Shown: piece after piece, positions 4,389-22,116 of the stretch
How the letters are laid out: the number at the start of each line of letters is the position of its first letter
How positions within the stretch are numbered: the first letter of the stretch is position 1
DNA from: a virus
Direction: 5' to 3' (one strand)
IMG/VR virus record: IMGVR_UViG_3300037010_003311
Location: 162,658 to 226,657 of that record
DNA length: 64,000 nt
The notes under the pieces: generated by a model
Databases searched by the model: none
What the model saw: only the letters and a program-made list of their open reading frames with translations
Told to the model about the DNA's origin: nothing
Program-made: the position numbers and the translations under genes

Positions 4389-5393
4389 TTAACGAGTTTG
4401 ATAATTTACCATATCCGAAATGAGTTCATCTAACTTTTTATTATATTTCGATATAGTTAATGGAATAAACATATTTTTAAGCATCCGTTTATTAATCTCT
4501 TCTTTGTAAACTTTAGTGTACTTAATCATATCTAAGTTCGAATATAAATCTTCTTTTTTACAAATTTTTATAATTTTACTAAGAACCTCTGTTAAATAAT
4601 TATCACAAATATTTTGATCAGTTACTGTAAAACCAATATTAAAAATTAAGTTTTCTCGGTTTTTTGAACACTCAATAATTTTTAATAATTCCGGTTTAAC
4701 ATATTTTGATTCTATATTTGTGAACACTCTACGGATTTTTGGATTTATAATACACGGTTTATTATTGATAACATTATGAATTAAAGTTGGTAATACCATC
4801 CCTGATTCTGGCTCATGGCCTATTCCAGTAATATTAAAAAATCTTACTATTTGTACATTAGGCAATTCTCTAAATAAGAACTCGGATACTAATTTTTGGC
4901 TCGCGTAGCCACCACGTTTGCTCAAAAGCGGGTTACTTATAGATATTGGGGAATTATCAATTATATCCCCATTCTCTCCAAATACTTCGCTACTACTAGC
5001 AAACACTAATGGTATTTTACTCTTTTCAATAAAGTTATACACTTTAAGATTAATAGTTAACGCATCAGCAATTGTATTTTGATTAAGAATATTATTAACT
5101 CCAACTGGACTAGCAAGATGTATACAACAATCAAAAAAATGTTTCTTAAACTTAGGAAGTTTCTCTTTTACTAAATCTATATTATAACGAATAAGATTTT
5201 TATCATTGTAGTTATCTAAAAGGCGGCTACGACCATAATGCGTAATAACCTTAGGTTCATCCCCACCAATCATATAATTATATTCTTTATCAATTATATG
5301 AACTCTATAATTAAGATCTAATAGCCATTTAGTTATATGACTTCCAATAAAACCAGCTCCTCCAATAATTAAAATATTTTTCTTTTTTTTCAT
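4389..5393 (-). CDS. NAD-dependent epimerase/dehydratase (extended SDR), 334 aa
   Basis: An extended short-chain dehydrogenase. The N-terminal ILIIGGAGFIGSHI is the Rossmann dinucleotide motif, HLASPVGV follows the fourth strand, FASSSEVFGE carries the catalytic Ser region, and GGYASQKLVSEF holds the YxxxK pair. The length fits the nucleotide-sugar epimerase/decarboxylase family, which acts on UDP-, GDP- or dTDP-sugars. A TATAGAAATA element lies about 35-45 nt upstream of the start. A second, shorter SDR is encoded just upstream, so two steps of a sugar pathway are likely. The exact substrate cannot be told. Confidence 0.88.
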   Translation of the reverse strand: MKKKKNILIIGGAGFIGSHITKWLLDLNYRVHIIDKEYNYMIGGDEPKVITHYGRSRLLDNYNDKNLIRYNIDLVKEKLPKFKKHFFDCCIHLASPVGVNNILNQNTIADALTINLKVYNFIEKSKIPLVFASSSEVFGENGDIIDNSPISISNPLLSKRGGYASQKLVSEFLFRELPNVQIVRFFNITGIGHEPESGMVLPTLIHNVINNKPCIINPKIRRVFTNIESKYVKPELLKIIECSKNRENLIFNIGFTVTDQNICDNYLTEVLSKIIKICKKEDLYSNLDMIKYTKVYKEEINKRMLKNMFIPLTISKYNKKLDELISDMVNYQTR

Positions 5394-5472: not shown

Positions 5473-6261
5473 TTAGAACCAACCCAATGCTAACATAGTT
5501 TCTAATTCTACAATTGAATAAGATTGTAGGTTATCATACCTATAAATACTTTTTTTAGAAATCAAATTATTTAAAAACATTTTAGTTACTTGGCAAGTTT
5601 GTTTAATAAAGTTTTCCTTATTAATAATGAAATTTACAATTTGATCTTTGTCACCAACAAAACTACCATTCTTTAATTGAAATATTAAACCTTTATTTCT
5701 TGTACTATCATATACACGTGGAATATTTAAAATAAGATATTCTTTGATATTAGAACGAATATATCTTTCCATTGCTAATTTAAATACCGCATAATTATTA
5801 AATTCTTCTATATCAACCGTTGGTGCACTAAAACCTAGATTATTAATCTTTACTGGTATCTCCTGGAATGTAGCCATACTACTAGCAAATATTAGCTTAC
5901 ATTTTAATGCTTTAGCAAGTTGTACGATATTAATAGTACCATCAATCATGGTTTGGCTAGTTTTAACTTCATTTTGGAAATCAAACTTATCACTAGGGCT
6001 TGCAAAATGAATAATGCAATCAACATTTTTAAATGACCGGTACATACTAACGATTTTCGAATCGCGTATATCTGAATCAATATAAATAATTTTATCAAAT
6101 CGTTTAGTAAGTTCTGGCTTTAGTAATCCAATAAGATAACCTTTGCCACCAGTTATTAACGCTGTACCCATTATCCGTTTATTAATTTTCTTTTGTTCAT
6201 CTTCAAATATAAATGTATTGGTGTTTACTATTTTGATATCATTTTGTTTCTTGGAGTTCAC
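5473..6261 (-). CDS. NAD-dependent epimerase-like SDR, shorter form, 262 aa
   Basis: It has ALITGGKGYLIG (a slightly altered Rossmann glycine motif), IIHFASPSD, FASSMATF and YAVFKLAME (YxxxK), so it is an SDR related to the neighbouring epimerase but lacks part of the usual C-terminal substrate domain. A GTG start at 6261 with AGGA at suitable spacing adds 30 residues before the Rossmann strand; the alternative is ATG at 6171. It overlaps the transketolase subunit gene by 23 nt, so it is made in the same operon. Confidence 0.78.
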   Translation of the reverse strand: MNSKKQNDIKIVNTNTFIFEDEQKKINKRIMGTALITGGKGYLIGLLKPELTKRFDKIIYIDSDIRDSKIVSMYRSFKNVDCIIHFASPSDKFDFQNEVKTSQTMIDGTINIVQLAKALKCKLIFASSMATFQEIPVKINNLGFSAPTVDIEEFNNYAVFKLAMERYIRSNIKEYLILNIPRVYDSTRNKGLIFQLKNGSFVGDKDQIVNFIINKENFIKQTCQVTKMFLNNLISKKSIYRYDNLQSYSIVELETMLALGWF

Positions 6262-6712
6262 TATCTTTTCCTAATCTTATATAAAATATTCCATTTGGAT
6301 AACTATTTATTTCGGCTAAATTATTTTTAAACTCATATAATGTTTCTGGATCATAAAAAGGAATATCCAGCATCTTCATTATTTCGTAATCATCATCTAA
6401 TTGATGACCAATACCAAATTTTTCATAACCATACTTACCAGCATTACAAATTATAATTTTACCGAAGTGTGATCCAAAGTGTTTACAACTAAATTTTAAC
6501 TGTTCGAGCCTATGAATAATAAATCCGGCAACACCATAAATGTAAACGGTGTTACCTTCCGAAGCAATACCAGCTGCTACATTAACTAAATTGCTTTCAC
6601 CAAGATTACAATTTATAATTTTAGCTTTAGATGGAAATCGTTCGGTATTCCACATATCTGCATGCAGTAGGTAATCAGTATCTTTTAAACTATCAGCAAA
6701 GGTCATGCGCAT
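6239..6712 (-). CDS. Transketolase-like subunit, pyrimidine-binding domain, 157 aa
   Basis: It corresponds to the middle (Pyr) domain of transketolase: LGESNLVNVAAGIASEG contains the Glu that activates the thiamine pyrophosphate aminopyrimidine, followed by VYIYGVAGF. A C-terminal transketolase domain is absent. The neighbouring gene upstream encodes the thiamine-diphosphate-binding half, so the two form a split, heteromeric enzyme, as in some archaeal and bacterial split transketolases. Such enzymes move two-carbon units between sugars or make unusual branched sugars. It is preceded by AAGGA. Confidence 0.85.
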   Translation of the reverse strand: MRMTFADSLKDTDYLLHADMWNTERFPSKAKIINCNLGESNLVNVAAGIASEGNTVYIYGVAGFIIHRLEQLKFSCKHFGSHFGKIIICNAGKYGYEKFGIGHQLDDDYEIMKMLDIPFYDPETLYEFKNNLAEINSYPNGIFYIRLGKDSELQETK

Positions 6713-6766: not shown

Positions 6767-7504
6767 TCATTTAATAAACCTTTCCAGAAACTTCATCTTT
6801 TTTAATTTATCGCTAATGGTAAGTCCATTAAGATGTTTTAAACTTTCTAGATTTTTATAGTGCCATTTAACCGAATCAATTTCCATCTCTAGTACTCCAT
6901 CACCCTTTATCGTATGAATAAAGATAACCACTGGTTTTACTTTCAGTTCCTGACAATTGGATACTTTTTTAAATTGCTCATCAAAGCTTCGTACCAAATT
7001 TATTTTTGGATTAATATATATATCCCAGACCTCCCAATCATTTATTTCAAACAATTGTATGTATGAGGAATGTAACTTATTGTCAGCGAGAGGGCCAGTT
7101 AATTGCATTTTATTAAAATCTATAGTTACTACCATTTGTAATTGGTTTTGGCCAATGAACTGGATCGCTTCATATGTAGGCCCCATCTGTAAAGCGGCAT
7201 CGCTAATATTAACCCATGTTGGTTTATCGGATACTAGACTAATTCCAGCCGCTACCCCTAAAGCGTTACCAAGAGTCTCTTCGCTGAAATTTACAAATGG
7301 TAACTCTTTATGCTTAATACCATAAGAATATTCAGAAATTGGTTTAATTGTGGTATCTAACCAACCATTCTTTTCCCAAGTATAATAATAAGCTTCTGCC
7401 CCAAACGGTTTACCAATTACTATATTCCAATCTTTAGTTACTAACCCATTACTAAATATATAATCTAAATAGTATAATTGTGAAAGAGCACTAGGTATAT
7501 GCAT
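6767..7504 (-). CDS. Transketolase-like subunit, TPP-binding domain, 245 aa
   Basis: It matches the N-terminal TPP domain of transketolase: NALGVAAGISL, the metal/TPP motif ISDAALQMGPTYEAIQF (with D replacing the usual G-D order), and IDFNKMQLTG. The start is taken as ATG at 7504, directly after the preceding stop; TTG at 7516 is an alternative. It pairs with the Pyr-domain gene just downstream. The C-terminal HTIKGDG motif of transketolases is also present, so the active site looks intact. Probable role: formation of a modified sugar precursor, inferred from the adjacent epimerases. Confidence 0.85.
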   Translation of the reverse strand: MHIPSALSQLYYLDYIFSNGLVTKDWNIVIGKPFGAEAYYYTWEKNGWLDTTIKPISEYSYGIKHKELPFVNFSEETLGNALGVAAGISLVSDKPTWVNISDAALQMGPTYEAIQFIGQNQLQMVVTIDFNKMQLTGPLADNKLHSSYIQLFEINDWEVWDIYINPKINLVRSFDEQFKKVSNCQELKVKPVVIFIHTIKGDGVLEMEIDSVKWHYKNLESLKHLNGLTISDKLKKMKFLERFIK

Positions 7505-7505
7505 A

Positions 7506-8369
7506 TTATAACCCAAACAATGATTTTAAATCTTCTGTTATGGAATACCCAATTGAATACTCCATCGGTGTATATTCATTTAAAATTTTTATTAACTTAG
7601 TATCTATTTCTCTATTAAAGACTGGAGCGATTAATTTATATGAATCATTCATACCAAATAATTTGCAGTTAAATATTTCATAATTTAACCGAATCATAAT
7701 TCTTTTATGATTAAACAGTTTTAATTTATTATTTTGATCGGTCGTGTCTAATATACAACTATTTTCGTAAATATTTGGGAAATAGCTAAAAATATTATTT
7801 TTTGTATATAATGGAAATTCATAAAATCTTTTATATAAATCAATTATTAAATCAATATCATTTTTAAGTAGTGGCTCAAAAGGTTTCCAAATAGAACCAG
7901 ATAAAGCACTGGTTCTATAATATGGTCTCGGCCCATCTTTTATTTCAAAATCATTAACGGTAGGATTCGTTTTCGAAAGTACTTTAACCGCTTCAATATA
8001 CTCACTAAAACTTGGAATATATGGTTCATTACTAGTAGCAGCTGCAATTAAAGCTTCATGACAATTAATCATCTGCTTTAAATCAATACTACACTCAATT
8101 TCCAAATCTTTAAGTAACTTATTACTAATTTTAAAATTTTCAATTATTTCAGGTGTAATATTTGCTGCATTATAGAAGTTATTATTATAATGATCTTCTA
8201 AACTAGCAAGAGATTTATAATAATAAGTAAAGTTAATATCGCGGAATACAAACCCCGCCGAGTCATCTATAAATATTATAGGATTAAGAGCCGTTGCTGC
8301 ATCATCAGCGTACAGCTCATTAATGTATTTCGTTTCCGCCTCAATTATGGCTTGCCTCGATTCGTTCAT
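7506..8369 (-). CDS. Unknown protein in radical SAM cluster, 287 aa
   Basis: I do not recognise this protein. It is soluble and mixed alpha/beta, with an early helix rich in Glu, an IIFIDDSAGFVFRDI stretch and several Tyr-rich regions. The start is set at 8369 because AAAGGGGG precedes it at correct spacing; a longer frame lacks this. It lies directly downstream of a radical SAM gene and upstream of the split transketolase. It could be a partner or substrate of that enzyme, which is inference only. Confidence 0.65.
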   Translation of the reverse strand: MNESRQAIIEAETKYINELYADDAATALNPIIFIDDSAGFVFRDINFTYYYKSLASLEDHYNNNFYNAANITPEIIENFKISNKLLKDLEIECSIDLKQMINCHEALIAAATSNEPYIPSFSEYIEAVKVLSKTNPTVNDFEIKDGPRPYYRTSALSGSIWKPFEPLLKNDIDLIIDLYKRFYEFPLYTKNNIFSYFPNIYENSCILDTTDQNNKLKLFNHKRIMIRLNYEIFNCKLFGMNDSYKLIAPVFNREIDTKLIKILNEYTPMEYSIGYSITEDLKSLFGL

Positions 8370-8410: not shown

Positions 8411-9385
8411 TCAATAATTACATATACTAAATGTTAATAATTCGGAATCCGAAACATTTGAATTATCTATTTTTATTTCAGAAAGAATAGTTTCAATCTC
8501 TTTTATTTTAATAGTTTTTGTTTCGTTTTCGTAATGTATTTCTACTTCATCTTTATTTATAAAAAATGATGCTGATGGGTTATAGTTCAACGAGGTTTTA
8601 TCTAATTTCGAAGTATTGTACATATCAAATATTTTTTCTATATCGGAAAACTTATCGATAATAGGTTCCCGGCCATAATTAAGAAATTTAAAATTATCTC
8701 GAACAAAGTCGAAGCATTCTTTATAGCTTTTAATAAATGTTATAGTTTTATATATTTTGAACTTATTTAATACACTTGCTTCAGTAATATTAAATGGTTC
8801 AAAGATTCTATAATCGAACCCAATATTAATATAGATATTCTCTAAATTAAGAGTTTTTAAATACTCTAAAAATCCTAAATACTTTTTAGGATCTTCTGTA
8901 ACAACTAAATTCAAATTAACATAACCATAATATTTATATGTTGTTATAATATTTTGAATTATAAATTTTAGTGACCATCTTGGTCCGTTTGTACGTTCTG
9001 GGTCCTCGATATGTGGACTAATAACCATATCAACATTCTCTATTTTATAGAGCTCTTTAATTATAGTATTAAACTTTTTTATCGGTATTTCACCATTAGT
9101 GAAAACATAACCTTTATAATTTTCAATGACTTGTTGCTTATATCGCATTAGCTCAATAAAATATGGAGCTAATAATAGTTCACCACCAGCTTCCATAAAT
9201 ATTTTACCTTGCTTTGGCATTACATGATTAAAGTATGGTACTATATCGAAGTTTCCAGAATGGTTTTCGGTTATTGTATTATTTAGAAAATTATAACAGA
9301 AGTCACATTTTAAATTACATTCGGTGTACCACTCGACACATATAATAATATCATCTGGATCAATACTGATTCGGTGGGAACTCAT
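8411..9385 (-). CDS. Radical SAM protein 1, 324 aa
   Basis: The CxxxCxxC iron-sulphur motif is at Cys23, Cys27 and Cys30 (ECNLKCDFC), and AGGEL at 66-70 is the SAM-binding GGE motif. The central region has the alternating strands and helices of the partial TIM barrel. No extra cysteine cluster is seen at the C-terminus, so no SPASM domain. Such enzymes cleave SAM to a 5'-deoxyadenosyl radical. It overlaps the next upstream gene by one base (TAATG-type junction). The substrate is unknown. Confidence 0.85.
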   Translation of the reverse strand: MSSHRISIDPDDIIICVEWYTECNLKCDFCYNFLNNTITENHSGNFDIVPYFNHVMPKQGKIFMEAGGELLLAPYFIELMRYKQQVIENYKGYVFTNGEIPIKKFNTIIKELYKIENVDMVISPHIEDPERTNGPRWSLKFIIQNIITTYKYYGYVNLNLVVTEDPKKYLGFLEYLKTLNLENIYINIGFDYRIFEPFNITEASVLNKFKIYKTITFIKSYKECFDFVRDNFKFLNYGREPIIDKFSDIEKIFDMYNTSKLDKTSLNYNPSASFFINKDEVEIHYENETKTIKIKEIETILSEIKIDNSNVSDSELLTFSICNY

Positions 9386-9969
9386 TAATAATCCTTAATT
9401 ATAAACATCGGGTACTTAGGAGCTTTCATTTGGAAAGCATAATCAACTAAAAATTTTTTTTCATCTTCGAAATTATTAAGAAATGGTTTTTGTACAAAAA
9501 TATAATTATTAAAAATTAAAAAGGTATCTATCAATGGTACAATCCCAGTAGTTAAAACATGATCGAATAGTAGATCGGCAAACTTAATACCACAATATTG
9601 TTTAATAATCAAATTATCTTTATTTGGATAGTTCTTTATAAACTCTATAATATCTTGATCAGGTAAAGCGTTAGGATTTATTATGTTAGTATAATTATTA
9701 TTAATTTTATAGAAAAAGTTTTTATCCTGGATGCGTGGGGTAAATACTTCTAATTTAGTATGATCGCTTGCAACCTTAAAGCCATAATGTTCGTGAGCAA
9801 GAAGTGTACTAACTACATCAGACTGCTTGAAATCAAGAATCTTTTCTATAAGTGGTTCATAAAAGCCATAATCATCTAAAAATTCTTGAATCTTTCTAGT
9901 TTTAATATATTTAATTTTTTCTTCATTGCTAAAAATTTCATCACCTTTTATTTGAATAATATTTCCCAT
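9385..9969 (-). CDS. Unknown protein between two radical SAM genes, 194 aa
   Basis: No known family is recognised. The sequence is helical at the N-terminus and then mixed, with a single Cys. The ATG at 9969 is preferred because AGAGGT precedes it; the longer frame would overlap the next gene. It is placed exactly between two radical SAM genes, with one-base and ten-base junctions, which suggests it acts with them as partner, carrier or substrate. Confidence 0.65.
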   Translation of the reverse strand: MGNIIQIKGDEIFSNEEKIKYIKTRKIQEFLDDYGFYEPLIEKILDFKQSDVVSTLLAHEHYGFKVASDHTKLEVFTPRIQDKNFFYKINNNYTNIINPNALPDQDIIEFIKNYPNKDNLIIKQYCGIKFADLLFDHVLTTGIVPLIDTFLIFNNYIFVQKPFLNNFEDEKKFLVDYAFQMKAPKYPMFIIKDY

Positions 9970-9979
9970 ATTAATACCT

Positions 9980-10828
9980 CTAATTTTCCCAAAACTCATT
10001 ATCAAAATAACAAAAATTATTATGACATTGAGATATTATATATTCGTTACCACTAAAATTAAATTCCGAAAGTTTGATGCCAGTTTTATTAGTAAATATA
10101 TCATTAAAACATTTATATACTACATTATCCTGAATAAATAAAACGAAATTTTTAATATGGCACCGTTTATTAAAACTAGAGGTATTATTTTTCCATATTT
10201 CATAATTACTTAATTTATTAAACCGATGCGGTATAAATGCCCAATCATTTTTTAAATACTTAAAATTTTTATCTTGTTCCAAAGAAACTAAATGTTTACT
10301 ACTTGGACTAGCATCAAGTTTTTTTGGTAATAATGGATAGTATTGAACTTTGTCTTTATAAATCAATTTTAACTTTTTATATAATTCGATATTTGACCGA
10401 GGTAGATCCATTATGGAGATTTCGTTAAGATTTGAACTAAATGTATTAATTGTTTTTAGTAGTTCAATAAATTTAGTTTCAGTATAATGAAAAGAGTAAT
10501 TTAATTTTATATCAGGGTATGATGCTACGGCTGCTTCGACTACCGCGGGGTTAGAACCATTAGTCTGCAAAATTATAGAACCAAAGTAACTTTTAGCTAA
10601 TAGTATTAAATCTATAAGTTCTGGGTGCAAAGTAGGTTCGCCTCCAAATATAAATAAAATATTATTATCAATACCTGATTCTTTAACCCTAAGTTTATCG
10701 AAAAAATTTTTTAGATTCAAGAAATCTATTTTTGTATAGTCTATAGATGATTCAAGCGATTTATGCATATCCTCACAATACGGACAATTGTAATTACAAC
10801 TTTCAATTAATCGGTACTCTATTTTCAT
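9980..10828 (-). CDS. Radical SAM protein 2, 282 aa
   Basis: The CNYNCPYC motif begins at Cys11, and FGGEPTLHPE at about 61-70 is the GGE motif. A C-terminal set of cysteines (RCH..., YKCFND, QCHNNFCYF) suggests a short auxiliary-cluster (twitch or reduced SPASM) domain. The radical SAM motif is very close to the N-terminus. The start overlaps the previous gene by 26 nt. The auxiliary cluster points to a peptide or large-substrate enzyme, but the substrate is unknown. Confidence 0.87.
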   Translation of the reverse strand: MKIEYRLIESCNYNCPYCEDMHKSLESSIDYTKIDFLNLKNFFDKLRVKESGIDNNILFIFGGEPTLHPELIDLILLAKSYFGSIILQTNGSNPAVVEAAVASYPDIKLNYSFHYTETKFIELLKTINTFSSNLNEISIMDLPRSNIELYKKLKLIYKDKVQYYPLLPKKLDASPSSKHLVSLEQDKNFKYLKNDWAFIPHRFNKLSNYEIWKNNTSSFNKRCHIKNFVLFIQDNVVYKCFNDIFTNKTGIKLSEFNFSGNEYIISQCHNNFCYFDNEFWEN

Positions 10829-11939
10829 TTGGCCCTCTATTTTTTACTTTTAGTGTTTTTAGTAAACCATCGCAGAAGCACCCATTATGAGGGCAACACT
10901 TAGGAATAATAGCTTTAATATTTTTGAAAAAATTAAAATTTGTAGTAAGATCAGCCCGTATATTAAAACAAAATTGTTTTACTTCTCCACGAAAGTTAAT
11001 TTCATAATTATTATTATAACAATCCCAACCTTTAAAATGTGCAAATTTTTTAGAATAGATATCATAATCATTTAATAATAGTGGAGTCTCTATATCTGGT
11101 TCGGACCAATAGATAATATTTGGTTTATATAAAGCCTCTTGTTCTAGGTACTGGAATTCATTATAAAATTCTTCTGTATAATTATGTAGTTTATGCATAT
11201 CACCATCATCATATAAAAAATGTGGATGGATTTCTATCCCATTGGTTATCAATTCGCGAATTATATTCTTAATAAATGGCCAATATTTTTTATCTGGGTG
11301 CAGCATCACATTTACTTTATTTCTATAACCTTTATTTTGCATAGTTAAAATTTTATCAATGAACTGATTATATTTATCTATATATTCAAAATGAATGCTC
11401 CATAAAAAATATATTTTTGGACCACCCCTAGTATCATTAGAAGTTTGTTTTATAGAATTTTCATAATGATCAATATCTGGTAAAGATTCAAAGAACTCTA
11501 AAGGTTGGATGGAATTAGTAGTTATATATAGTCTAGAATCCGGGTGCCGGTTAATAGCTTTCCAACTTAATTCCATTAATTCCAAAAACCTAGGATGGAT
11601 GGTTGGTTCACCACCTTGGAAACCTAAAAATATTGGTAGGGTGCTGCGCTCTAAAGCCGCTATAACTAGCTTTTGCCGGTTCCAAGTATCTTGCTTATTC
11701 CATAAACCATCTGGGGAATATTGTTTAATTGCATAACAGTAAGCGCAATTCAGTTGACACTTAGTACTAACGTCCCAGTGGATATATAACCGGTTAACTT
11801 TATGAATATGTTCTACTGATATGGCTTCTGGAGCAGTCGATACAATATTTGTATTACCGTGACCCAATAGTTTAAATTCATTTAGTTTGTCTAAGATATC
11901 TATTTTTTCCATATTTAAGTAGTTCCATTTCATTTTCAT
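10803..11939 (-). CDS. Radical SAM protein 3 with C-terminal Cys cluster, 378 aa
   Basis: It has CQLNCAYC at 61-68 and FQGGEPTIHP around 108-116. The C-terminus carries DCYNNN, QFCFN and the dense CCPHNGCFCDG cluster, consistent with a SPASM-like auxiliary iron-sulphur domain. The first 50 residues are an N-terminal extension. The reported start (11939) overlaps the upstream gene by 62 nt; internal ATGs are possible. Enzymes of this architecture usually modify peptides or proteins. Confidence 0.86.
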   Translation of the reverse strand: MKMKWNYLNMEKIDILDKLNEFKLLGHGNTNIVSTAPEAISVEHIHKVNRLYIHWDVSTKCQLNCAYCYAIKQYSPDGLWNKQDTWNRQKLVIAALERSTLPIFLGFQGGEPTIHPRFLELMELSWKAINRHPDSRLYITTNSIQPLEFFESLPDIDHYENSIKQTSNDTRGGPKIYFLWSIHFEYIDKYNQFIDKILTMQNKGYRNKVNVMLHPDKKYWPFIKNIIRELITNGIEIHPHFLYDDGDMHKLHNYTEEFYNEFQYLEQEALYKPNIIYWSEPDIETPLLLNDYDIYSKKFAHFKGWDCYNNNYEINFRGEVKQFCFNIRADLTTNFNFFKNIKAIIPKCCPHNGCFCDGLLKTLKVKNRGPNENRVPIN

Positions 11940-12720
11940 AATTTATTTCTCTAAAGTTTTCTATTTCTAGTAGTGAGAGTTGACTCCAGTCTAAATCCTC
12001 TGAATAAGGTTTAAGTAGTCGTAGTTTAAAAATAGATAATGGGGTCTTTGTTAAATTATCAAAAAATCCATTTTTATTATATATATAATAATAAAAATTC
12101 TTAGATTTATATTCGTTTGATCCATTCCAATCATCAATAAAATATAAAATATCATATTGATTGAAAAAATTTATAAGTCGTTGATAATCTTTATTATTTG
12201 GATCAAGTATTGAAACTTCTAATATAGTATTTTTAGATTGTTTTAAATAATCTTGCAAGTCTAAAAATTTTGATTCAGTTTTAAGTTTCAATAATTCTGG
12301 ATGAATACTTATATTTAAAATTAGTAATATATTAGTATCTTTAAATATATCTATTACATACTTATAAAAACTTAAAGACCCTGAAAAATTTGTAGGTATT
12401 ACTAAACGAACAGCTTTGTCGGCAAACATATTCTTTATAAGATTAAGATATGGTATAACAGTATCTTTAAATAATGATAACTCTCCACCTTGTATAATTA
12501 AAAAGAATTGTTCGATCTCGTTTTTCTTACATTCTAATAAAAAGAATTTTAGATTATAAGTTAATGTTTTTAAATCAATAAGCTTTTTTTGTGAAGTTTC
12601 TGAACCCTGTGAACAGTAACTACAACTGAAGTTACAATAACTAGTTAATTCTATTGTTAGATTCACACTTTTTAATTTTGGGTTAATTTTTAACCGTTGT
12701 ATTATTGAGGAATCTTTCAT
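11878..12720 (-). CDS. Radical SAM protein 4, 280 aa
   Basis: It has YCNFSCSYCSQG with Cys29, Cys33 and Cys36, and IIQGGELSLF as the GGE motif near residue 79. It is short, and the C-terminal half lacks cysteines, so there is no auxiliary cluster domain. It overlaps the downstream radical SAM gene by 62 nt and the upstream glycosyltransferase gene by 38 nt. These long overlaps indicate compact, coupled expression. The substrate is unknown. Confidence 0.84.
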   Translation of the reverse strand: MKDSSIIQRLKINPKLKSVNLTIELTSYCNFSCSYCSQGSETSQKKLIDLKTLTYNLKFFLLECKKNEIEQFFLIIQGGELSLFKDTVIPYLNLIKNMFADKAVRLVIPTNFSGSLSFYKYVIDIFKDTNILLILNISIHPELLKLKTESKFLDLQDYLKQSKNTILEVSILDPNNKDYQRLINFFNQYDILYFIDDWNGSNEYKSKNFYYYIYNKNGFFDNLTKTPLSIFKLRLLKPYSEDLDWSQLSLLEIENFREINYENEMELLKYGKNRYLRQTK

Positions 12721-13342
12721 CTTTATTATGCTCCGGAAAACTTATATTATCTAAACCATCACATGTTTGGATAAACATTTGTTTTTTTATTAAGGTTATT
12801 TTGCCATCCGAGCCATCCACGGATTGTTTAAGTATTTGAAAAAGTTTCCAATCATTATCTAGGTGATTATTTAATAACTCAGATGGAAAACTAGGTAATA
12901 ATTCTTTTTTAAAAATAATTTGCGAAAGTTGGAATAAATCATTTGTAGTTTCTATTTTAAAATTATTTCTATAAGTTAGTTGTAGTAACCGATCTTCTAA
13001 TTTAGCCGGTTTGTAATTCATATAAATTAATGAAGAATCTAAAACTAAATGTTCAACAAAAGATGATGATAAATAATCATCGTCTTCTAAAAAGTAAATG
13101 TATTCACCACTAGCTAAATCAAATAAATGTTTATATAAATAACCTAAATTATTATTACTATAATATGAATATCTAATCGGGTAAGAATCGGAGTATATTT
13201 CCTGAATATCTTTACTATCGTTATTAACGAGAACTTCTATATTAAATGAAAATTTAAACTGTAAAATACTATTAATACACCGTTCAAATAACTTTGGTCG
13301 GTTATGAGTTAAAATCAATATGCTCAATTTGGGGATAGACAT
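12683..13342 (-). CDS. GT2-family glycosyltransferase, 219 aa
   Basis: It starts PKLSILILTHNRPKLFERC, the classical first strand and NR motif of GT-A family 2 enzymes. EVLVNNDS is the second nucleotide-binding strand, and YFLEDDDYL supplies the DXD-type metal site. The protein is short for the family and ends soon after the acceptor region (HLDNDWKLF). It transfers a sugar from a nucleotide donor to an unknown acceptor. It lies within the radical SAM cluster and overlaps both neighbours. RBS AAAAGGA precedes the ATG. Confidence 0.87.
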   Translation of the reverse strand: MSIPKLSILILTHNRPKLFERCINSILQFKFSFNIEVLVNNDSKDIQEIYSDSYPIRYSYYSNNNLGYLYKHLFDLASGEYIYFLEDDDYLSSSFVEHLVLDSSLIYMNYKPAKLEDRLLQLTYRNNFKIETTNDLFQLSQIIFKKELLPSFPSELLNNHLDNDWKLFQILKQSVDGSDGKITLIKKQMFIQTCDGLDNISFPEHNKDERFLNNTTVKN

Positions 13343-14357
13343 CTTGCTTTCCTTTTAATTGTTTTTCTATACCATCACATTCTTTAAACCATTTACATTT
13401 CATACACTCTTTTGGCTTATAATAAGTGTATTCTCTAGATCGTTTTGCTGCATTCCATCCTAATTCTAAAGACTCGGACCAAGTATATTGTTTATTATTA
13501 TCAAATTTATAATCTCCATTATAAACTTCTTTATTCCAATCAGTTGTATCAAATACGTGCTGAAACTGACCATAAACTAAATCTGTAAATTCCCCAGCAA
13601 AGCAAAAGGGCAAATACCGAATACGAATATCAAATTCTGGATAACTAACTTTAAGCTGGCGTATAGTATTCAAAACTGGAACACTAAGCTCTTCGTATTT
13701 AATTATGTTGGATTTTGCATTATCATCCCAATAATTATGAAATATGAAATTTACTTGTTTTAATCCAAACTTGATAAAATGGTATATTACTTGTAAAAAA
13801 CTATTATCTATACAATTACGGTTACTAGTTGTAATAGTGCAGTTAATACGGGTTATAATACCATTAGATAATGAATTGGTAATAGCTTTAACTAAGTTTT
13901 TATAAGCTCCTGGTTTACCAACTATTTCATCATGATAATGATCGGTACCATGCATACTGAATAAAATCTCTTTTAATCCATAATCTTTAGACTTAAGAAG
14001 GAAATCAAGATCTTTAAATTTTTGACCATGACTAAGAGTACTAACATGATCAAATCCTTCGTTACAATATTTTAAAATCCTAAACCAGTCTGGGTGAATA
14101 CTACTTTCTCCACCACTAAGTTCGATTTCTTTAATAAGGCTATAACTGCTAATATAATCAATACGGTCTTTAATAATTTTAAAATTATCCATCTTATCTA
14201 AACGATCTTTATAATAACAGAATGTACAATTCAGATTACAAAGAGTTCCGGTATCCAATTTTGCTCGCTTACAAAGAGGGTTAGTTTGTTCGGACCATAA
14301 TGGATTAATTTCTGGCGTAGCAATTAAATTATAATTCATTTTATCCCTTTTTTCCAT
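13302..14357 (-). CDS. Radical SAM protein 5, 351 aa
   Basis: It has CNLNCTFC at Cys40, Cys44 and Cys47 and ELSGGESSIHPDW as the GGE motif at about 82-84. Near the C-terminus KECMKCKWFKEC forms a compact cysteine cluster like the end of a SPASM domain. It has AAAGGT before the ATG at 14357; a second in-frame ATG (residue 7) also has AAGGG. It overlaps the GT2 gene by 41 nt. The combination suggests modification of a peptide or of a sugar-carrying substrate. Confidence 0.87.
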   Translation of the reverse strand: MEKRDKMNYNLIATPEINPLWSEQTNPLCKRAKLDTGTLCNLNCTFCYYKDRLDKMDNFKIIKDRIDYISSYSLIKEIELSGGESSIHPDWFRILKYCNEGFDHVSTLSHGQKFKDLDFLLKSKDYGLKEILFSMHGTDHYHDEIVGKPGAYKNLVKAITNSLSNGIITRINCTITTSNRNCIDNSFLQVIYHFIKFGLKQVNFIFHNYWDDNAKSNIIKYEELSVPVLNTIRQLKVSYPEFDIRIRYLPFCFAGEFTDLVYGQFQHVFDTTDWNKEVYNGDYKFDNNKQYTWSESLELGWNAAKRSREYTYYKPKECMKCKWFKECDGIEKQLKGKQDVYPQIEHIDFNS

Positions 14358-14369
14358 TAATAATACCTT

Positions 14370-14419
14370 TGTGTAGATAATTGATTTTTCTCTTAAAGAT
14401 AGTAGTTACTCTACACAAT
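14370..14419. repeat. Short inverted repeat between radical SAM 5 and GT-B-like gene
   Basis: TTGTGTAGA and its reverse complement TCTACACAA flank about 30 nt in the short gap upstream of the radical SAM 5 start. It could be a weak terminator or leader structure. Confidence 0.35.
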
Positions 14420-14422
14420 TCG

Positions 14423-15409
14423 TTATTTTTTACCAAGAATTTGTCTTATCGTTTCGATAATTATATCCGAATCATCCAAATATAAGCTATCGAAATTATT
14501 TTCTATATCCCATTTTCTAACCATCAGACCAGTGTCGATTTTTAAATAATCTTCGTCAATATCATTATCGTAAATTACTGGAATACCAAAATATTTACAT
14601 TCCGCAATCATACGAGGACTACAATCCCATTTACGATCTATTGGTGTATAGATATATGCTGACATAATTTCAAAAATATTATGGATTGGTACTACTCTAT
14701 AGCAAACTTGTTTATCAATAATAGGATTATCAAGTAAAGGGCTCTCTTTATTAATAAGAATAAGTAAGCGTTCGTGGTTATTCAAATTAGATAAATGTTT
14801 TTTAATAGTACAATTATCGATCAGTTTACAATTACTCGTAGCATATAATATTACATTCTTTGGTAATTGACTTTCCATATGATTAAAGCTATCAGTTTTT
14901 AATATTGGATTTAAAGCATTAAAGTTTAATTTTTTAACATAATTAAGTTTCTTTGCATTGAGTGGTAATTTATAATTTAATCGTTCATCCACCATAAATA
15001 ATATTTTATCAATTAAGTTATTATACAACTGGAACTTGGAGTAATCTCTAGTCCCACATGGAAATAAAATCAAACCTTTTACATTATATATATTTACCTC
15101 ATTAAGTAAACCATCGGTAAAAATTAGAATGGAGTTAGGACAATTATAAATTCTTGGCCTACTAAATTTAATTTTTAAATCTTTTACTAAATTTGGATCA
15201 TACTTAGATAATGCTATTTCCATTTCTTCTTTACTAATATCCTCACCAAAAACTATTTCAACTTTATAATATTTATTTAGTAAGATATAATATTCGATTA
15301 CTTCAAAAAAATGGCCACAAATTCCATGTTTATTATCATGACTACTATAAGTAAGTATTACTTCTGCATCCGAAGTAAAAGCCAATTGCTTTTTAATTTT
15401 ATTTTCCAT
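14423..15409 (-). CDS. GT-B-like glycosyltransferase-type protein, 328 aa
   Basis: The C-terminal third has RKWDCSPRMIAECKYFGIPV followed by an acidic strand and a D-rich tail (YLDDSD). The layout resembles the donor-binding domain of GT-B enzymes, where a conserved Pro-Arg-x-x-x-Glu helix contacts the nucleotide sugar. The N-terminal half (HDNKHGICGHFFEVIEYY) would be the acceptor domain. The protein at 18417-19259 has a similar organisation with NNRLIPEAKFY. The assignment rests on the fold pattern only. It overlaps the next upstream radical SAM gene by 11 nt. Confidence 0.55.
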   Translation of the reverse strand: MENKIKKQLAFTSDAEVILTYSSHDNKHGICGHFFEVIEYYILLNKYYKVEIVFGEDISKEEMEIALSKYDPNLVKDLKIKFSRPRIYNCPNSILIFTDGLLNEVNIYNVKGLILFPCGTRDYSKFQLYNNLIDKILFMVDERLNYKLPLNAKKLNYVKKLNFNALNPILKTDSFNHMESQLPKNVILYATSNCKLIDNCTIKKHLSNLNNHERLLILINKESPLLDNPIIDKQVCYRVVPIHNIFEIMSAYIYTPIDRKWDCSPRMIAECKYFGIPVIYDNDIDEDYLKIDTGLMVRKWDIENNFDSLYLDDSDIIIETIRQILGKK

Positions 15410-16217
15410 TATTATTCCAGTTTTGTTTACATATATTAAAGTTTTTTAAACTATTAATTGTTGGCTGAAATTGATTAGAACTAAATGAGGTACATGTTTT
15501 GCATATATCTGGAGTGATACCATCTTTAAAATCTTTAAATAATTTATATCGTTTACCATCTAAATAAAGATCTTTAAAATTGGTTTTATAAATATTTCCA
15601 AGTATAGCATCTTTAGTGAGATCGGTTGGTTCTCCGGAACAAGTGCAATAATTGAAATCACCATTTGATAAAATTCGTGGTACCCATAGATTTGAACACA
15701 CTCCAGTTATTTTTGGAACATTTATTCGGGATTGAGTTTCACAATCATAATCATAAAATCTGTTCCGATTACTTAATTCGATATTGATACCATATTGTTT
15801 TGCAAGTTGAATATTTTCTTCAATCTTATAAAAAAATTTATCCTTAGCTCTTGTCTGGTATTTAAATTCTTCTATCCCATCGCATCCATAATGAGAAACA
15901 TGAATTTTTAATTTTTTTAAATTAATACCATTCGTAGTTAACTTATCGAAATTTATTTTAGAAAAATTTGTATGAAATTCAATTGTTTTAAGATTTGAAT
16001 TGGTGAATAATTTTAGAATTTCATATATATCTGGGTGCAAAAATATTTCACCTCGACTTGGAGTTAATTTTAAATATGTTATTTTTAGTTCATTGATATC
16101 TTTAATTAAAGTTTTGATTGTGTCGAGGTTAATTATTTCTAATGGTTCTTTTGTATTACCCGCCCCACAAAAATAGCACTTAAAATTACACTGATTAATG
16201 ATCTCAATTGCCAACAT
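15399..16217 (-). CDS. Radical SAM protein 6 with SPASM-type C-terminus, 272 aa
   Basis: It has CNFKCYFC at Cys10, Cys14 and Cys17. The GGE motif is altered to SRGE near residue 54-57. The C-terminal part has GVCSNLWVPRILSNGDFNY-CTC and later ICKTC, the typical order of a SPASM domain that binds auxiliary clusters. It resembles the small SPASM enzymes that act on peptides or on sugar-type molecules. It overlaps its upstream neighbour by 14 nt. Confidence 0.88.
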   Translation of the reverse strand: MLAIEIINQCNFKCYFCGAGNTKEPLEIINLDTIKTLIKDINELKITYLKLTPSRGEIFLHPDIYEILKLFTNSNLKTIEFHTNFSKINFDKLTTNGINLKKLKIHVSHYGCDGIEEFKYQTRAKDKFFYKIEENIQLAKQYGINIELSNRNRFYDYDCETQSRINVPKITGVCSNLWVPRILSNGDFNYCTCSGEPTDLTKDAILGNIYKTNFKDLYLDGKRYKLFKDFKDGITPDICKTCTSFSSNQFQPTINSLKNFNICKQNWNNNGK

Positions 16218-16569
16218 CTATAAGACCTTTTCGATTATCAGAAGCTATGGTTTTACACACTCGATAATCAAGTCGTTTAATCTTTCTGTAAACGTTAGGG
16301 TAATCCATTTTCAGATTATCTAAATAAATTTTAAAACAATCAAGTTCGAATTCAATCTCGGAAAAGTATTCAGTGGTTTGATTAAAAAAGAGTTTCGTGG
16401 CTGGATCAGCAACCGTTTCAATACCTACCTCAAAGTTTTTACTTCGGCCACATAACATGTAGTTATATGTGGCTAGTTGTGGTATAGTATTAGCTATATT
16501 AACAGACCGTAGATTATTGGAATTTAACTGAGATGATTCTTTATCACATTCGTATTTTGGATCTGGCAT
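16204..16569 (-). CDS. Hypothetical protein, 121 aa
   Basis: No family is recognised. It contains four cysteines spread through the sequence and a helical, charged C-terminal half. It is preceded by AAAAGGA. It overlaps radical SAM gene 6 by 14 nt and is 13 nt downstream of the helicase gene, so it may be translated from the helicase transcript or from the radical SAM operon. Confidence 0.65.
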   Translation of the reverse strand: MPDPKYECDKESSQLNSNNLRSVNIANTIPQLATYNYMLCGRSKNFEVGIETVADPATKLFFNQTTEYFSEIEFELDCFKIYLDNLKMDYPNVYRKIKRLDYRVCKTIASDNRKGLIDVGN

Positions 16570-16582
16570 TAATCTAATCCTT

Positions 16583-18109: not shown

Positions 18110-18157
18110 TTTTACTCCTCTATTTTCTTTAACCTTTATTTTTAACGCGTGAGAAAT

Positions 18158-18181
18158 ATAGCGGTGGTTTCCCACCGCTAT
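18158..18181 (-). terminator. Hairpin TAGCGGTGG/CCACCGCTA
   Basis: 9-bp GC-rich arms with a 4-nt loop lie between the small ORF and the helicase gene, and the ORF stop codon is part of the stem. It is not followed by a U run, and may instead be a processing site or stabiliser. Confidence 0.5.
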
Positions 18182-18327: not shown

Positions 18328-18370
18328 TGTTGGTGAATCCTTTTCTTTTAAGAATTACAAGTTGCTTATA

Positions 18371-18380: not shown

Positions 18381-18416
18381 ATTACTATTTAATAGTTTTA
18401 GACCGATGCATGATTG

Positions 18417-19259
18417 TTAATCATTTAAAAAATCTTTTATAAGAATATCATTTTCCGTTAGCCAATATTCATTTAAATCGTTGGATGTGTACCTATCATA
18501 AATACTATCATTTTTATATTCATCTTTCACAAATATAACGTTCAAATTTTTTTTATAGAATTTAGCTTCCGGGATCAATCTATTATTAGTATCTAGCGCA
18601 CCATTATGAACATAAAGAATATTATTAACCGTATCATATATATTTAAATTTTGAGTATGTGTCTTAAAAATATAATCGGGTGGTAAAAATGCTCGTATAT
18701 CGTTAACGGTTGATGACAAGCTAGAAACATAGGTTTTATTATTTTTTATATCGGATTGTAGTTCTTTAAATATATCGAATTTTAATTTAAGACGAGTTCG
18801 TTTAAAAAATTTCTGATAATCATAATAACCATATATAGTAGTGATTGGATAGGGAATACCCAATTTCATATCTTTAGTATTATTACAATAAAGATATTTA
18901 ATACCATTTGGGTTGAGCCAATAAATTTCATTATAGCTTTTTACATCAAGAAATAATACTTTATCCAATTTCAAAGAATAACAATCAAGTCTAGAAATAA
19001 ATTTAATATTATCTAGCACTTGTTCTATGATTTCCGGTTTATATTTATTATTATAAAGTGTAAGAACTTTTTCTTTGATTTTAGTATCATTTGGATCGCA
19101 AACTATATAAAAATTTATCGTCGCATCATTATTTTTGCCAATAATTTGGAATAATTGGTAAAAATATTCAAATGTATAAAGTAAGGTGCCATTAATTTGA
19201 TTATATTTTTGCCAATAATAAACCACTCCATATTTTATCTTTGAATCAGATACTAACAT
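18417..19259 (-). CDS. Putative GT-B-like protein, 280 aa
   Basis: The C-terminal region has GALDTNNRLIPEAKFYKKN followed by a hydrophobic strand and an acidic tail, which resembles the end of the 14423-15409 protein. The first part (KIKYGVVYYWQKYNQING) and a run of strands such as FYIVCDPN suggest a two-domain Rossmann protein. The ATG at 19259, overlapping the preceding stop by 14 nt, is preferred to 19343 to avoid a long overlap. The glycosyltransferase call is tentative. It may work with the other sugar genes. Confidence 0.45.
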   Translation of the reverse strand: MLVSDSKIKYGVVYYWQKYNQINGTLLYTFEYFYQLFQIIGKNNDATINFYIVCDPNDTKIKEKVLTLYNNKYKPEIIEQVLDNIKFISRLDCYSLKLDKVLFLDVKSYNEIYWLNPNGIKYLYCNNTKDMKLGIPYPITTIYGYYDYQKFFKRTRLKLKFDIFKELQSDIKNNKTYVSSLSSTVNDIRAFLPPDYIFKTHTQNLNIYDTVNNILYVHNGALDTNNRLIPEAKFYKKNLNVIFVKDEYKNDSIYDRYTSNDLNEYWLTENDILIKDFLND

Positions 19260-19905
19260 AACCAGCTTTTGATATCCAATCTTTTTTAAATCTATTATAA
19301 ATCTCAGTTGATTCTTCCAATGTATCAGCGTCACGAATCTCATTTTTTAGTTTACAATAATTATCGTATGCGGCAAACGCTCTAGATATTTCATCCTTAT
19401 TCATTAGATACTTTTCTAGAAGATCAATAAGTTCATCATTTTCTTTTTCTAATATTTCAATATACTTTTCTTCTTTATTTGCATCAGTAATAAAATAACC
19501 TTGTTCCATAAGACTATTATTTAGTACTATAAATTCATAATAGGTAAGATTTGCAACTGTATTAATTTTTTGATCAAAGAATCTTTCTGCTTCAAGTAAT
19601 ATGTTTTGCTTCGCTTGTTCAAGCAATACATCAACGTGTATCTCTGGTAAAGAATCTTTTACAACTATATCATATGGCTCGAGTTTTGTTAAACCTCTAA
19701 ATTCGGTTATCAATACCGCTTTATCAAGTTTTAGGTATTTGTCTACTTTTGTAGCACTTGCTTTAGTTAATGGTGCAATCCTATACCCAATATCATAATC
19801 CTTAAGTTTACTACTAGTTTGATCAATGATTTCGATTATTTGATATAGGCCAATCTGTATTTTTTTACATAATGCAAATTTTGCTGCATTTTGATTTTTT
19901 TCCAT
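19246..19905 (-). CDS. Hypothetical protein with C-terminal coiled coil, 219 aa
   Basis: An alpha/beta N-terminal half is followed by a strongly helical C-terminal half (EEKYIEILEKENDELIDLL) that looks like a coiled coil. The ATG at 19905 follows AAGGA and gives a 41-nt overlap with the endonuclease gene. Its place just after a tail-protein/endonuclease pair could fit a fibre accessory or assembly factor, but I see no specific match. Confidence 0.6.
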   Translation of the reverse strand: MEKNQNAAKFALCKKIQIGLYQIIEIIDQTSSKLKDYDIGYRIAPLTKASATKVDKYLKLDKAVLITEFRGLTKLEPYDIVVKDSLPEIHVDVLLEQAKQNILLEAERFFDQKINTVANLTYYEFIVLNNSLMEQGYFITDANKEEKYIEILEKENDELIDLLEKYLMNKDEISRAFAAYDNYCKLKNEIRDADTLEESTEIYNRFKKDWISKAGYVSI

Positions 19906-21211
19906 TCGAATTTTCCTTAATTTTAATTTTACCAGCGTTCCATAAGGCGCGGGTTTTGTGCACCATCCGGCTTTCTGGTTCAAGTATTTTATAATCTACA
20001 CCAAGTGGATAGCAACCAGAATCCAAGTCATATATATCTATCACAGTGTCTGGATCATAAGCTATAAATTTATCTATTTGCTCTTTCCAATTGCTTAAGT
20101 TTATATCTTCATATAACTGAAGCAACCGAATACCGGCCTCTAAGCAGGCTAAAGCTTTTCGTTGGTGTCGGTACTTACAAAAATCGTAATCTAGTTGTTG
20201 TGAGCTGATCCCTATGGTTTCGTGGTAGCTATGCCAATAACTACCATTCCATTCTATTGCCAATTTTAAGCTAGGTATCCAAATGTCTAGCTCCTGATTT
20301 GGTATTATGGTCCGTTCATTTGCTACCGCTGGAACACCTAAGCTTTCTAAATATGGTATTATAGCTTGTTCCTGTAAACTAGTTGCTGCGGTCTTGGTAT
20401 ATTTTATACCAAGTTTTTTAATTTGGGTATGGGTAGCTGGTTGTTCACAATTAAAATAATCCATACATGTTATATAATCAAAATAATTATCGTTTGTTAT
20501 AAAATTTCTTTTCCAGAATTCGATATCGTTCCAATATTTAGCATTAGTATAATGTTTACGTTTTGGATTACTTACCCCATATTTTTCGATATTATTTTTA
20601 ATCATCTTTTCTTTAATATCTTTATTTTGTAAAGGTTTTGATACACCATACTTAATTAAACTTGATTCCTGTTGTTTACGTTTAATTTCTGAATTAGAAT
20701 TTGGACTTTTGGTACCATATTTTTCGATATTATTTTTAATCATCTTTTCTTTAATTGCCGGATGTTGCATAGAAGTTGTATAACCATATATTTGTAAACA
20801 AGCTTCTTGTTGCTTACGCTTAATTTCCGGGACCGAATTCGGGCTGCTGGTACCATATTTTTTAATACTGTTTTGAACCATTTTTTCTTTAACCACTAAA
20901 CTTTGAATAGGGTTTTCGACACCAAATCTATCTAAACTAGTTTGTTTATATTTTATTTTTCTTAATCTAATTATTTCCGGCCTCATTATATTATAGCATT
21001 CGGTTGAACAACAATATTTGAGCCCAGATTTTGTAGTACCTTTCGATTTCAAATTTTTACAATCCTGATTTAAACACTTTATATTTTCTAAAGTTAACTC
21101 AAATTTTAATTGATATTTTACTATAAAATTTAATTGTCGGATTGTTAAATTTTTTGCTTCTGGATACGCATCTTTAATTAATTCTGGGGTTAATTTATGT
21201 TTCTGTAACAA
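19865..21211 (-). CDS. Vsr-fold homing-type endonuclease (EDxHD-like), 448 aa
   Basis: A Cys-rich zinc-finger-like segment (CLNQDC...CCSTEC, residues about 46-75) is followed by tandem repeats of the type IKEKMIKNNIEKYG..(S/P), which occur in phage homing endonucleases as DNA-binding modules. The C-terminal domain has NQELDIWIPSLKLAIEWNG-SYWHS and a later CKYRHQRKALAC helix, as in the Vsr-like EDxHD homing endonucleases. The start is a TTG at 21211, 3 nt from the preceding stop, since an in-frame stop lies just upstream. It is probably a selfish free-standing element inserted behind the fibre-type gene. Confidence 0.8.
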   Translation of the reverse strand: MLQKHKLTPELIKDAYPEAKNLTIRQLNFIVKYQLKFELTLENIKCLNQDCKNLKSKGTTKSGLKYCCSTECYNIMRPEIIRLRKIKYKQTSLDRFGVENPIQSLVVKEKMVQNSIKKYGTSSPNSVPEIKRKQQEACLQIYGYTTSMQHPAIKEKMIKNNIEKYGTKSPNSNSEIKRKQQESSLIKYGVSKPLQNKDIKEKMIKNNIEKYGVSNPKRKHYTNAKYWNDIEFWKRNFITNDNYFDYITCMDYFNCEQPATHTQIKKLGIKYTKTAATSLQEQAIIPYLESLGVPAVANERTIIPNQELDIWIPSLKLAIEWNGSYWHSYHETIGISSQQLDYDFCKYRHQRKALACLEAGIRLLQLYEDINLSNWKEQIDKFIAYDPDTVIDIYDLDSGCYPLGVDYKILEPESRMVHKTRALWNAGKIKIKENSNGKKSKCSKICIM

Positions 21212-21213
21212 TC

Positions 21214-22116
21214 TTAAACTCTATTAATTTTAGCTTCTAAGTCAATTACTTGTTTAGTTAAACTAGTTACTTGTTGCTTTAAGTTTTGGACTTCTGCTAT
21301 TAGTGGACCAATTAACTGTTGATAGTTTACCATATAATAACCATCTAAGTCTTGGGTTAAAGCCTCGGAATCGCGTAATTCGGTGTTTAAGAGGCTTTGA
21401 GCAATGATACCATAATGCTTTTGTGGTAGAGCCGTAACTTTATCCGCAGCTAGGTACTGGAACTTAACTGCTCGAACATTATCCAGAATGCCAGACTCGA
21501 GAGTCTGAATATTTGCTTTTAGTCTTTCATCCGAGTAGTTACAACCACAGTTACCATTACACGAGCATACTACGTTGCACTTGCAGTCTTGGTCACAACC
21601 GGATTGATTAATTACCGTATTATTTAAATTATCTATTATTGATCTAATGAAAGCCGCATTAATGATATCGGCGCCATCAGATTTATCTACTGGTGAGGCT
21701 GATAGTGTAGATGGTTGTTGCCAGGCATTTTGTAAAGCTTTGACTCGGTTAACTACATCTAACCATAACTGACCATAAACTATATGCTTATCAAATGGGG
21801 TCTGCCCATTCGCATCAAGATCGATAGTCTGCATCAGCCCTCCACCAAGATATGGTAAAGCATTACCAGCAGCATCGTGGAGAGGATTATTTATATATCT
21901 ATTAATCTCTTCGTTAACAACGTCTACCAATGTTTTAATTATATCGGTATCGTAAATAATATGTTGAGCTATTGGATTGCTATCATTTAAAGCCGAAAGT
22001 ATTGTTGCTGACGTTGGCCAATTTACAACTTGTGCGTCGTCAGACCCAGACCCTAAAGCATGTGCCGGGTCATGTGCATTTATATGGCATAAACCATTTG
22101 GTGTATTATCTGCCAT
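21214..22116 (-). CDS. Cys-rich tail-type protein with S74 self-cleaving chaperone domain, 300 aa
   Basis: Residues 1-170 form a polar helical region of unknown fold. Residues 174-192 contain seven cysteines (Cys174, 178, 180, 184, 186, 190, 192) separated by Asn, Gly, Asp and Val. NYSDERLK at 193-200 starts the intramolecular chaperone (S74) domain, which ends in a long coiled coil (residues 275-298). In this family the chaperone trimerises a fibre and cuts itself off at the Ser of SDxRLK (Ser195 here). Cleavage would leave the Cys-rich stretch as the C-terminal tip of the mature trimer. The start codon overlaps the stop of the radical SAM gene as TAATG, so the two are coupled. The protein is the likely substrate of the two SPASM enzymes; this is inference. 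Confidence 0.85.
   Translation of the reverse strand: MADNTPNGLCHINAHDPAHALGSGSDDAQVVNWPTSATILSALNDSNPIAQHIIYDTDIIKTLVDVVNEEINRYINNPLHDAAGNALPYLGGGLMQTIDLDANGQTPFDKHIVYGQLWLDVVNRVKALQNAWQQPSTLSASPVDKSDGADIINAAFIRSIIDNLNNTVINQSGCDQDCKCNVVCSCNGNCGCNYSDERLKANIQTLESGILDNVRAVKFQYLAADKVTALPQKHYGIIAQSLLNTELRDSEALTQDLDGYYMVNYQQLIGPLIAEVQNLKQQVTSLTKQVIDLEAKINRV

Follow-up and report, generated by a model that had tools for sequence, protein, structure and literature searches.

Radical SAM enzymes, glycosyltransferases and a split transketolase form a conserved viral cassette beside fibre-like genes

What would a virus do with six different radical S-adenosylmethionine (SAM) proteins encoded one after another among glycosyltransferase genes? 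Radical SAM clusters in phages have been on record since 2010 with no substrate assigned. The question is posed anew by IMG/VR virus record IMGVR_UViG_3300037010_003311 (226,657 bases), of which positions 162658–226657 were analyzed; this stretch of 64,000 nucleotides is called the window, and positions refer to it unless the genome is named. On the minus strand, six radical SAM genes (rS1–rS6, starting at 8411, 9980, 10803, 11878, 13302, and 15399) follow one another head to tail, interleaved with a GT2 enzyme and a GT-B-like protein (GTB), and the initial annotation had proposed a dedicated pathway, perhaps one that makes an unusual glycan or peptide decoration. It turned out that GTB, rS5, GT2, rS3, a split transketolase (TktN and TktC), and epimerases (epimA and epimB) are one strongly conserved cassette, not an isolated curiosity.

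All six open reading frames (ORFs) contain CxxxCxxC and a GGE or GGE-like motif. They belong to a run from 16569 to 4389, in which genes overlap or are closely spaced with gaps of no more than 79 bases, in the order u121, rS6, GTB, rS5, GT2, rS4, rS3, rS2, u206, rS1, u302, TktN, TktC, epimB, and epimA (Table 1). Overlaps of 1–62 nt occur through most of the run: the largest, 62 nt between rS4 and rS3, hinges on the start picked for rS3, in which conservation is lacking over the first ~45 residues, and shorter ORF overlaps are seen again in relatives. Upstream are found a Dda-like helicase, u308, u245, a DUF7487 gene, an S74 fibre-like protein, rS7, u100, rS8, and a tail-fibre-like gene. The initial annotation had treated rS7, rS8, and the Cys-rich S74 protein as lying outside the finding, which is to be corrected: all three are part of this syntenic run. 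The 226 kb genome has nine radical SAM ORFs, and eight of them fall within 16.5 kb (8411–24869), a clustering far beyond chance; the ninth, a QueE-like protein at genome position 51541, is outside the cluster.

A scan with rS3 detected four viral loci that share the core genes in an almost unchanged order, mostly at 30–50% identity, and a scan with rS5 alone found no close relative. By a profile scan with rS3, 36 loci were obtained and 35 analyzed (L027, the same stretch as L028, was left out), which reduce to 23 distinct clusters when their rS3 proteins are grouped at 95% identity; many of these loci are incomplete contigs. The core order is kept across them, which is the outcome of the synteny check suggested at the outset. 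Among the 23 clusters, GTB and GT2 are present in all, rS5 and TktN in 22, TktC in 21, epimA in 19, rS7 and u245 in 18, a Cys-rich protein in 17, and PIG-L in 16, and each of the 35 loci has 5 to 10 radical SAM proteins. rS3 and rS5 form the core, and rS1, rS4, and rS6 are variable; rS2-like proteins are common (22 of 23 clusters, mostly partial matches). The initial interpretation is partly supported: a dedicated pathway has good support, its core keeping one gene order across 23 distinct viral populations and being linked to fibre genes, but the six radical SAM proteins are not equal members of it. Furthermore, the neighbours of the cassette are fibre genes or genes of another virion type in nearly all 35 loci, as they are in the window. 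In 17 of the 23 clusters, a fibre-like Cys-repeat protein is encoded within the same run, flanked by SPASM radical SAM proteins that are most closely related to the thioether-forming peptide maturases PapB and CteB.

The six proteins are distant from each other (best pairwise E ~1e-6), in agreement with the initial view that they share core motifs alone. Four of them, rS2, rS3, rS5, and rS6, have the Cys-rich C-termini that had been noted, and the same four exceed the cut-off of Pfam Radical_SAM (PF04055). The profile check is less clear for the other two: rS4 stays below the cut-off (17.4 vs. 29.5) and rS1 has no match at all, both giving weak NCBIfam matches to radical SAM only. The SPASM cut-off is passed by rS6 alone among the six. 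C-terminal Cys sets are conserved in the rS3 family (auxiliary motif C307, C324, C349, C354, and C356, invariant) and in the rS5 family (C252, C318, C321, and C327, invariant in alignment A6), and one is also seen in rS2; rS1 and rS4 are devoid of a C-terminal auxiliary-cluster Cys set.

The sugar-related partners were equally recognizable. GT2 has an acidic DXD-type motif in addition to its Pfam match above cut-off. The transketolase is indeed split into two ORFs, with D106 and N135 in TktN and a conserved Glu in TktC; we take the former two to be residues for the cofactor thiamine diphosphate (ThDP) and the Glu to be catalytic. The best PDB match of TktN is 6yak, the N-terminal component of a split transketolase, and the epimerases announced downstream are likewise borne out by family matches. 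As for GTB, no sequence match was found in Pfam or PDB, and the top Foldseek matches of its model are nearly all GT-B enzymes with TM-scores of at most 0.49; since scores under 0.5 fall short of proof, the earlier GT-B-like label is retained as a probable GT-B glycosyltransferase.

Cys-repeat genes and radical SAM genes were found to go together. In a DNA-pattern scan of viral contigs for the Cys repeat, in which out-of-frame occurrences of the pattern served as an internal control, radical SAM genes were present at 40/45 in-frame loci vs. 1/35 out-of-frame loci, the single exception having its motif at a contig edge (Fisher P ~5e-16, an optimistic value because near-identical contigs were kept in). 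At the level of whole viral records, they were present in 35/36 with in-frame (CTCNCNY)n vs. 0/26 controls, the controls being mostly shorter. The consensus over 258 heptads is C-T-C-[D/N/Q]-C-N-Y. A cellular origin of the repeat was considered and rejected: a search of 84,980 cellular genomes gave two matches to the double repeat, both in phage-like contigs. A tblastn search of annotated phages with a Cys-repeat protein returned nothing, probably an artefact of the low-complexity filter because Campylobacter phage CP220 has the repeat (see below). No paper linking radical SAM proteins to Cys-rich phage fibres was found in a literature search with open-access coverage.

In the window, the corresponding protein is the fibre-like one encoded at 21214–22116. 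Its Cys-rich segment (CDQDCKCNVVCSCNGNCGCNY) is a CxCNxx variant directly preceding the S74 chaperone domain; relatives often have (CTCNCNY)n as this segment, at or near the C-terminus. This candidate substrate gene adjoins rS7, whose SPASM seven-Cys set (C294, C312, C364, C367, C372, C375, and C416) is invariant in 16 sequences. The best PDB match of rS7, 5wgg/5why, is CteB. PapB is the nearest family only, as rS7 and rS8 score 55.8 and 54.1 bits, respectively, vs. the 340-bit cut-off of the PapB model NF047865. Relatives of the tail-fibre-like gene at 24983 in L083, L099, and L115 precede the same cluster or a Cys-repeat gene. As separate observations, fibre-like proteins with up to ~28 Cys heptads were noticed in L030, L046, L070, and L101 besides the one in the window; L030 has a tandem row of four Cys-heptad proteins and, in addition, a short S74-like ORF, and L070 has genes for an acyl carrier protein and a ketoacyl-synthase-like protein within the same run.

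Gene content, synteny, co-occurrence, and family relations suggest what the cassette may do, and its reaction, product, and acceptor are putative in this sense. The preferred reading, with roughly even chances of being right, is that module B (GTB, rS5, GT2, rS3, the variable radical SAM proteins, TktN, TktC, the epimerases, and often PIG-L) synthesizes an unusual sugar in the cytosol and attaches it to a fibre protein of the virion, the gene of which lies just upstream in this run. The epimerases and the split transketolase, the latter through C2 ketol transfer, would build the modified sugar; rS5 and rS3 would perform C–H chemistry, acting either on the sugar or on the protein that bears it; rS1, rS2, rS4, and rS6 would be more exchangeable tailoring enzymes; and the transfer steps would fall to GT2 and GTB. 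The overlapping of ORFs on a single strand and the closeness of a TktC relative to the Cys-repeat gene in CP220 (see below) also speak for this reading. A further module that is separable, module A (rS8, rS7, the Cys-rich fibre, and u245), would probably cross-link the Cys-rich segment of the fibre by thioethers. A tentative extension, which we regard as possible, is that a family of phages uses SPASM radical SAM maturases to cross-link fibres with Cys-repeat segments, (CTCNCNY)n or the CxCNxx of the window, and decorates fibre proteins with an unusual radical SAM-tailored sugar: chemistry in the style of ribosomally synthesized and post-translationally modified peptides (RiPPs) on a virion protein. 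PapB links Cys to Asp or Glu and accepts altered spacing (PMC9413430), so that Cys-Asp/Asn thioethers in the repeat are thinkable.

Several observations weigh against the proposal of a fibre-directed sugar. rS1, rS4, and rS6 are nearly without relatives in other clusters: as best match in the 35 loci, rS1 and rS6 appear for no gene and rS4 for one, rS1 has no phage or cluster relative and no Pfam match, and rS6 has a single full-length relative (L110, 32%). These three look like variable tailoring enzymes. The run is broken up by the Dda-like helicase (16583–18175) and the DUF7487 gene (19865–21211), which have no counterpart in related loci. About six loci (L117, L118, L120, L121, L122, and L146) have module B but not module A, and in most of these rS5 comes after other virion-type or unknown genes; hence, the Cys segment cannot be the sole possible substrate of module B, and the six radical SAM proteins are part of a separable cassette, in which the constant partners are the glycosyltransferases and the enzymes of sugar metabolism. 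In addition, a pelagimyophage study reads tail-adjacent glycosyltransferases as modifiers of host lipopolysaccharide (LPS) (PMC7029224).

That last interpretation leads to another explanation, in which the cassette changes the LPS or capsule of the host during infection and so hides receptors and shuts out other phages, the vicinity of fibre genes then marking a “host recognition” island. LPS islands typically hold glycosyltransferases, epimerases, and PIG-L-type proteins, and the pelagimyophage host-recognition clusters with glycosyltransferases and radical SAM cassettes are interpreted as host glycan modifiers in that study (PMC7029224). However, no flippase, polymerase, or lipid-linked initiating transferase was recognized in the window cluster, functions that phage genes elsewhere or the host could supply, and its proteins have no strongly hydrophobic segment (maximum Kyte-Doolittle average of 1.49 over 19 residues), which together suit a cytosolic protein acceptor. 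The cassette is also tightly linked to fibre proteins, of the Cys-repeat type in most loci, and we consider a host glycan target unlikely, though worth keeping in mind.

Alternatively, all radical SAM proteins including the six may act directly on the Cys-rich fibre segment, giving many RiPP-like modifications, with the glycosyltransferases glycosylating the same segment. The 3–16 radical SAM genes that accompany Cys-repeat genes in each record would fit this, as would the best matches of rS5: the thioether maturase SkfB in PDB, over the core domain only, and the HxsC group in NCBIfam. It is rendered improbable by the phages having module B without a Cys-repeat protein, and by rS3 being structurally closer to MoaA and BlsE. 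These are the nearest folds of its predicted structure with moderate confidence, BlsE acting on a sugar nucleoside, in a model too weak at the termini for inferring a substrate. Still harder to accept is that the enzymes put sugars on phage DNA bases in addition to a 7-deazaguanine pathway: T4 DNA is glycosylated by GT-B enzymes, and QueC, QueD, and a QueE-like radical SAM protein are encoded elsewhere in this genome, but the cluster sits with tail-type genes far from the que genes and has virion-type neighbours in related phages. The least probable is a loose set of auxiliary metabolic genes aiding host metabolism at low oxygen, an idea put forward for Campylobacter phages including CP220 (PMC2853527), against which stand the gene order conserved across 23 distinct populations and the association with fibre proteins. 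If the preferred reading, a radical SAM-tailored sugar on a fibre protein, is true, radical enzymes tailor the receptor-binding apparatus of a virus, and such phages would be a new source of enzymes for peptide cross-linking and sugar modification.

Table 1. Features of the cassette and its upstream neighbourhood in the window.
Feature	Position	Strand	Basis
epimA, NAD-dependent epimerase/dehydratase	4389..5393	-	PF01370 78.8 bits
epimB, NAD-dependent epimerase/dehydratase	5473..6261	-	PF01370 38.6 bits
TktC, pyrimidine-binding half of split transketolase	6239..6712	-	41–46% to cluster relatives; conserved Glu
TktN, N-terminal half of split transketolase (ThDP-binding)	6767..7516	-	Transketolase_N; D106 and N135 invariant
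u302, 302 aa	7506..8414	-	ORF; no family or cluster relative
rS1, divergent radical SAM, 324 aa, accessory	8411..9385	-	CNLKCDFC and GGE; weak NCBIfam radical SAM matches
u206, 206 aa, overlaps both neighbours	9385..10005	-	no Pfam family; weak short PHROG match; no cluster relative
rS2, radical SAM, 282 aa, C-terminal Cys set	9980..10828	-	PF04055 35.5 bits, over cut-off
rS3, core radical SAM, 378 aa	10803..11939	-	PF04055 34.4 bits; relatives 39–51% identical
rS4, radical SAM, 280 aa, without C-terminal Cys set	11878..12720	-	CNFSCSYC, GGE; PF04055 below cut-off
GT2 glycosyltransferase, 219 aa	12683..13342	-	PF00535 44.9 bits (cut-off 23.3); EDDD motif conserved
rS5, core radical SAM, 351 aa	13302..14357	-	PF04055 49.9 bits; ~39% to Firehammervirus radical SAM
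GTB, GT-B-like glycosyltransferase (probable), 328 aa	14423..15409	-	phrog_24441; structure model pLDDT 85
rS6, radical SAM/SPASM, 272 aa, accessory	15399..16217	-	PF04055 37 bits, SPASM 23.6 bits, each above its cut-off
u121, small protein, overlaps rS6	16204..16569	-	ORF; no family match
u308, conserved cluster protein	18417..19343	-	31–33% relatives in L028, L029, L110
u245, conserved, just downstream of Cys-repeat genes	19246..19983	-	33/45 Cys-repeat loci
Fibre-like protein with Cys-rich segment, candidate acceptor	21214..22116	-	Peptidase_S74 32.3 bits; aligns with Cys-repeat proteins
rS7, SPASM radical SAM, candidate thioether maturase	22116..23426	-	PapB as top NCBIfam match, near full length; 5wgg/5why as top PDB match by profile, E=7.5e-28
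u100, small protein between rS8 and rS7	23423..23725	-	related loci have small ORF there, no detectable similarity
rS8, SPASM-type radical SAM	23727..24869	-	best NCBIfam PapB 1.4e-14, near full length
Tail-fibre-like gene, upstream of cluster	24983..26845	-	relatives 34–43% in L083, L099, L115; no Pfam match

With regard to the wider setting, megablast of the region against annotated phages gave no match, and scans of the region for sigma-70 promoters and terminators gave sites no more numerous than in shuffles. For the T4-like nature of this large uncultured phage, the one support obtained here is a ~26% terminase match. Other features were noticed on the way. A 7-deazaguanine pathway, as in Campylobacter phages, is represented by QueC, the QueE-like radical SAM protein, and a QueD-like protein at genome positions 3804–4565, 51541–52383, and 71444–72064 (L010, L012, and L013). 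Proteins similar in appearance to that of the DUF7487-family gene in the cluster are encoded at genome positions 85900, 120525, 135121, 146294, and 147603, and such genes are possibly mobile (homing-type). A gene at 1364–1969 has a GGDEF (diguanylate cyclase) domain (70.7 bits). At 48963–51291, a possible histidine-kinase-like protein (HATPase_c below cut-off) overlaps a 301-aa gene without a Pfam match, and their being a two-component pair is only a guess. Tandem paralogues are found twice: about ten at genome positions 31428–39857 (L011) with a repeat “GDIGGWIETE.NLSHSGDAWVY”, and four at 61938–63964 with nearly identical N-termini (ending ...LMLEATTPDEVNRGVALINESMQTVYGVL) and divergent Gly/Ala-rich tails.

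How does the cassette compare with known systems? Like prokaryotic viperins, all or most of the six proteins match the radical SAM core weakly; an antiviral viperin reading was rejected, the matches reaching at most 38.6 bits vs. the NCBIfam cut-off of 180 and covering the core only. The host recognition cluster of pelagimyophages is also a variable island of T4-like phages combining fibre genes, glycosyltransferases, and radical SAM cassettes; unlike the present case, the available text (PMC7029224) mentions neither a conserved pathway nor a split transketolase or Cys-repeat protein, a comparison by description only. The PapB ranthipeptide and CteB SCIFF maturases are resembled by rS7 and rS8, which match them near full length beside a Cys-rich protein, rS7 with the full SPASM Cys set. 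The difference from PapB lies in the candidate substrate, a virion-type protein of fibre size instead of a short peptide, whose repeat lacks the natural CX3D spacing of PapB.

The closest parallel is in Campylobacter phages, which carry several radical SAM genes of unknown product as the initial annotation had stated: 11 and 12 were reported in CP220 and CPt10, respectively (Timms et al., 2010; PMC2853527). An exchangeable module of five radical SAM genes with an amidinotransferase in these phages has no known function (PMC2853527). As in the window, several radical SAM genes and sugar-transferase-like genes form a single run close to tail-fibre genes in the module of these Firehammervirus members (PMC2853527). 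CP220 encodes relatives of rS5 (gp163) and rS7 (gp136) as well as of TktN, TktC, GTB, and an epimerase, and its TktC relative lies 161 bp upstream of gp140, which encodes a 534-aa CTC[DN]CNY-repeat protein. The rS5 and rS7 profiles run on CP220 included Campylobacter-phage rows, so that their large scores there are not independent; single-sequence searches also support the rS5 and GTB relations, and a weak pairwise match (25%) that of rS7. In contrast to the window, the CP220 relatives are scattered over ~100 kb, and its five-gene module is largely a different gene set. The tie to a conserved sugar pathway and a recognizable Cys-repeat fibre gives these radical SAM clusters a concrete, testable acceptor, also in culturable phages such as CP220.

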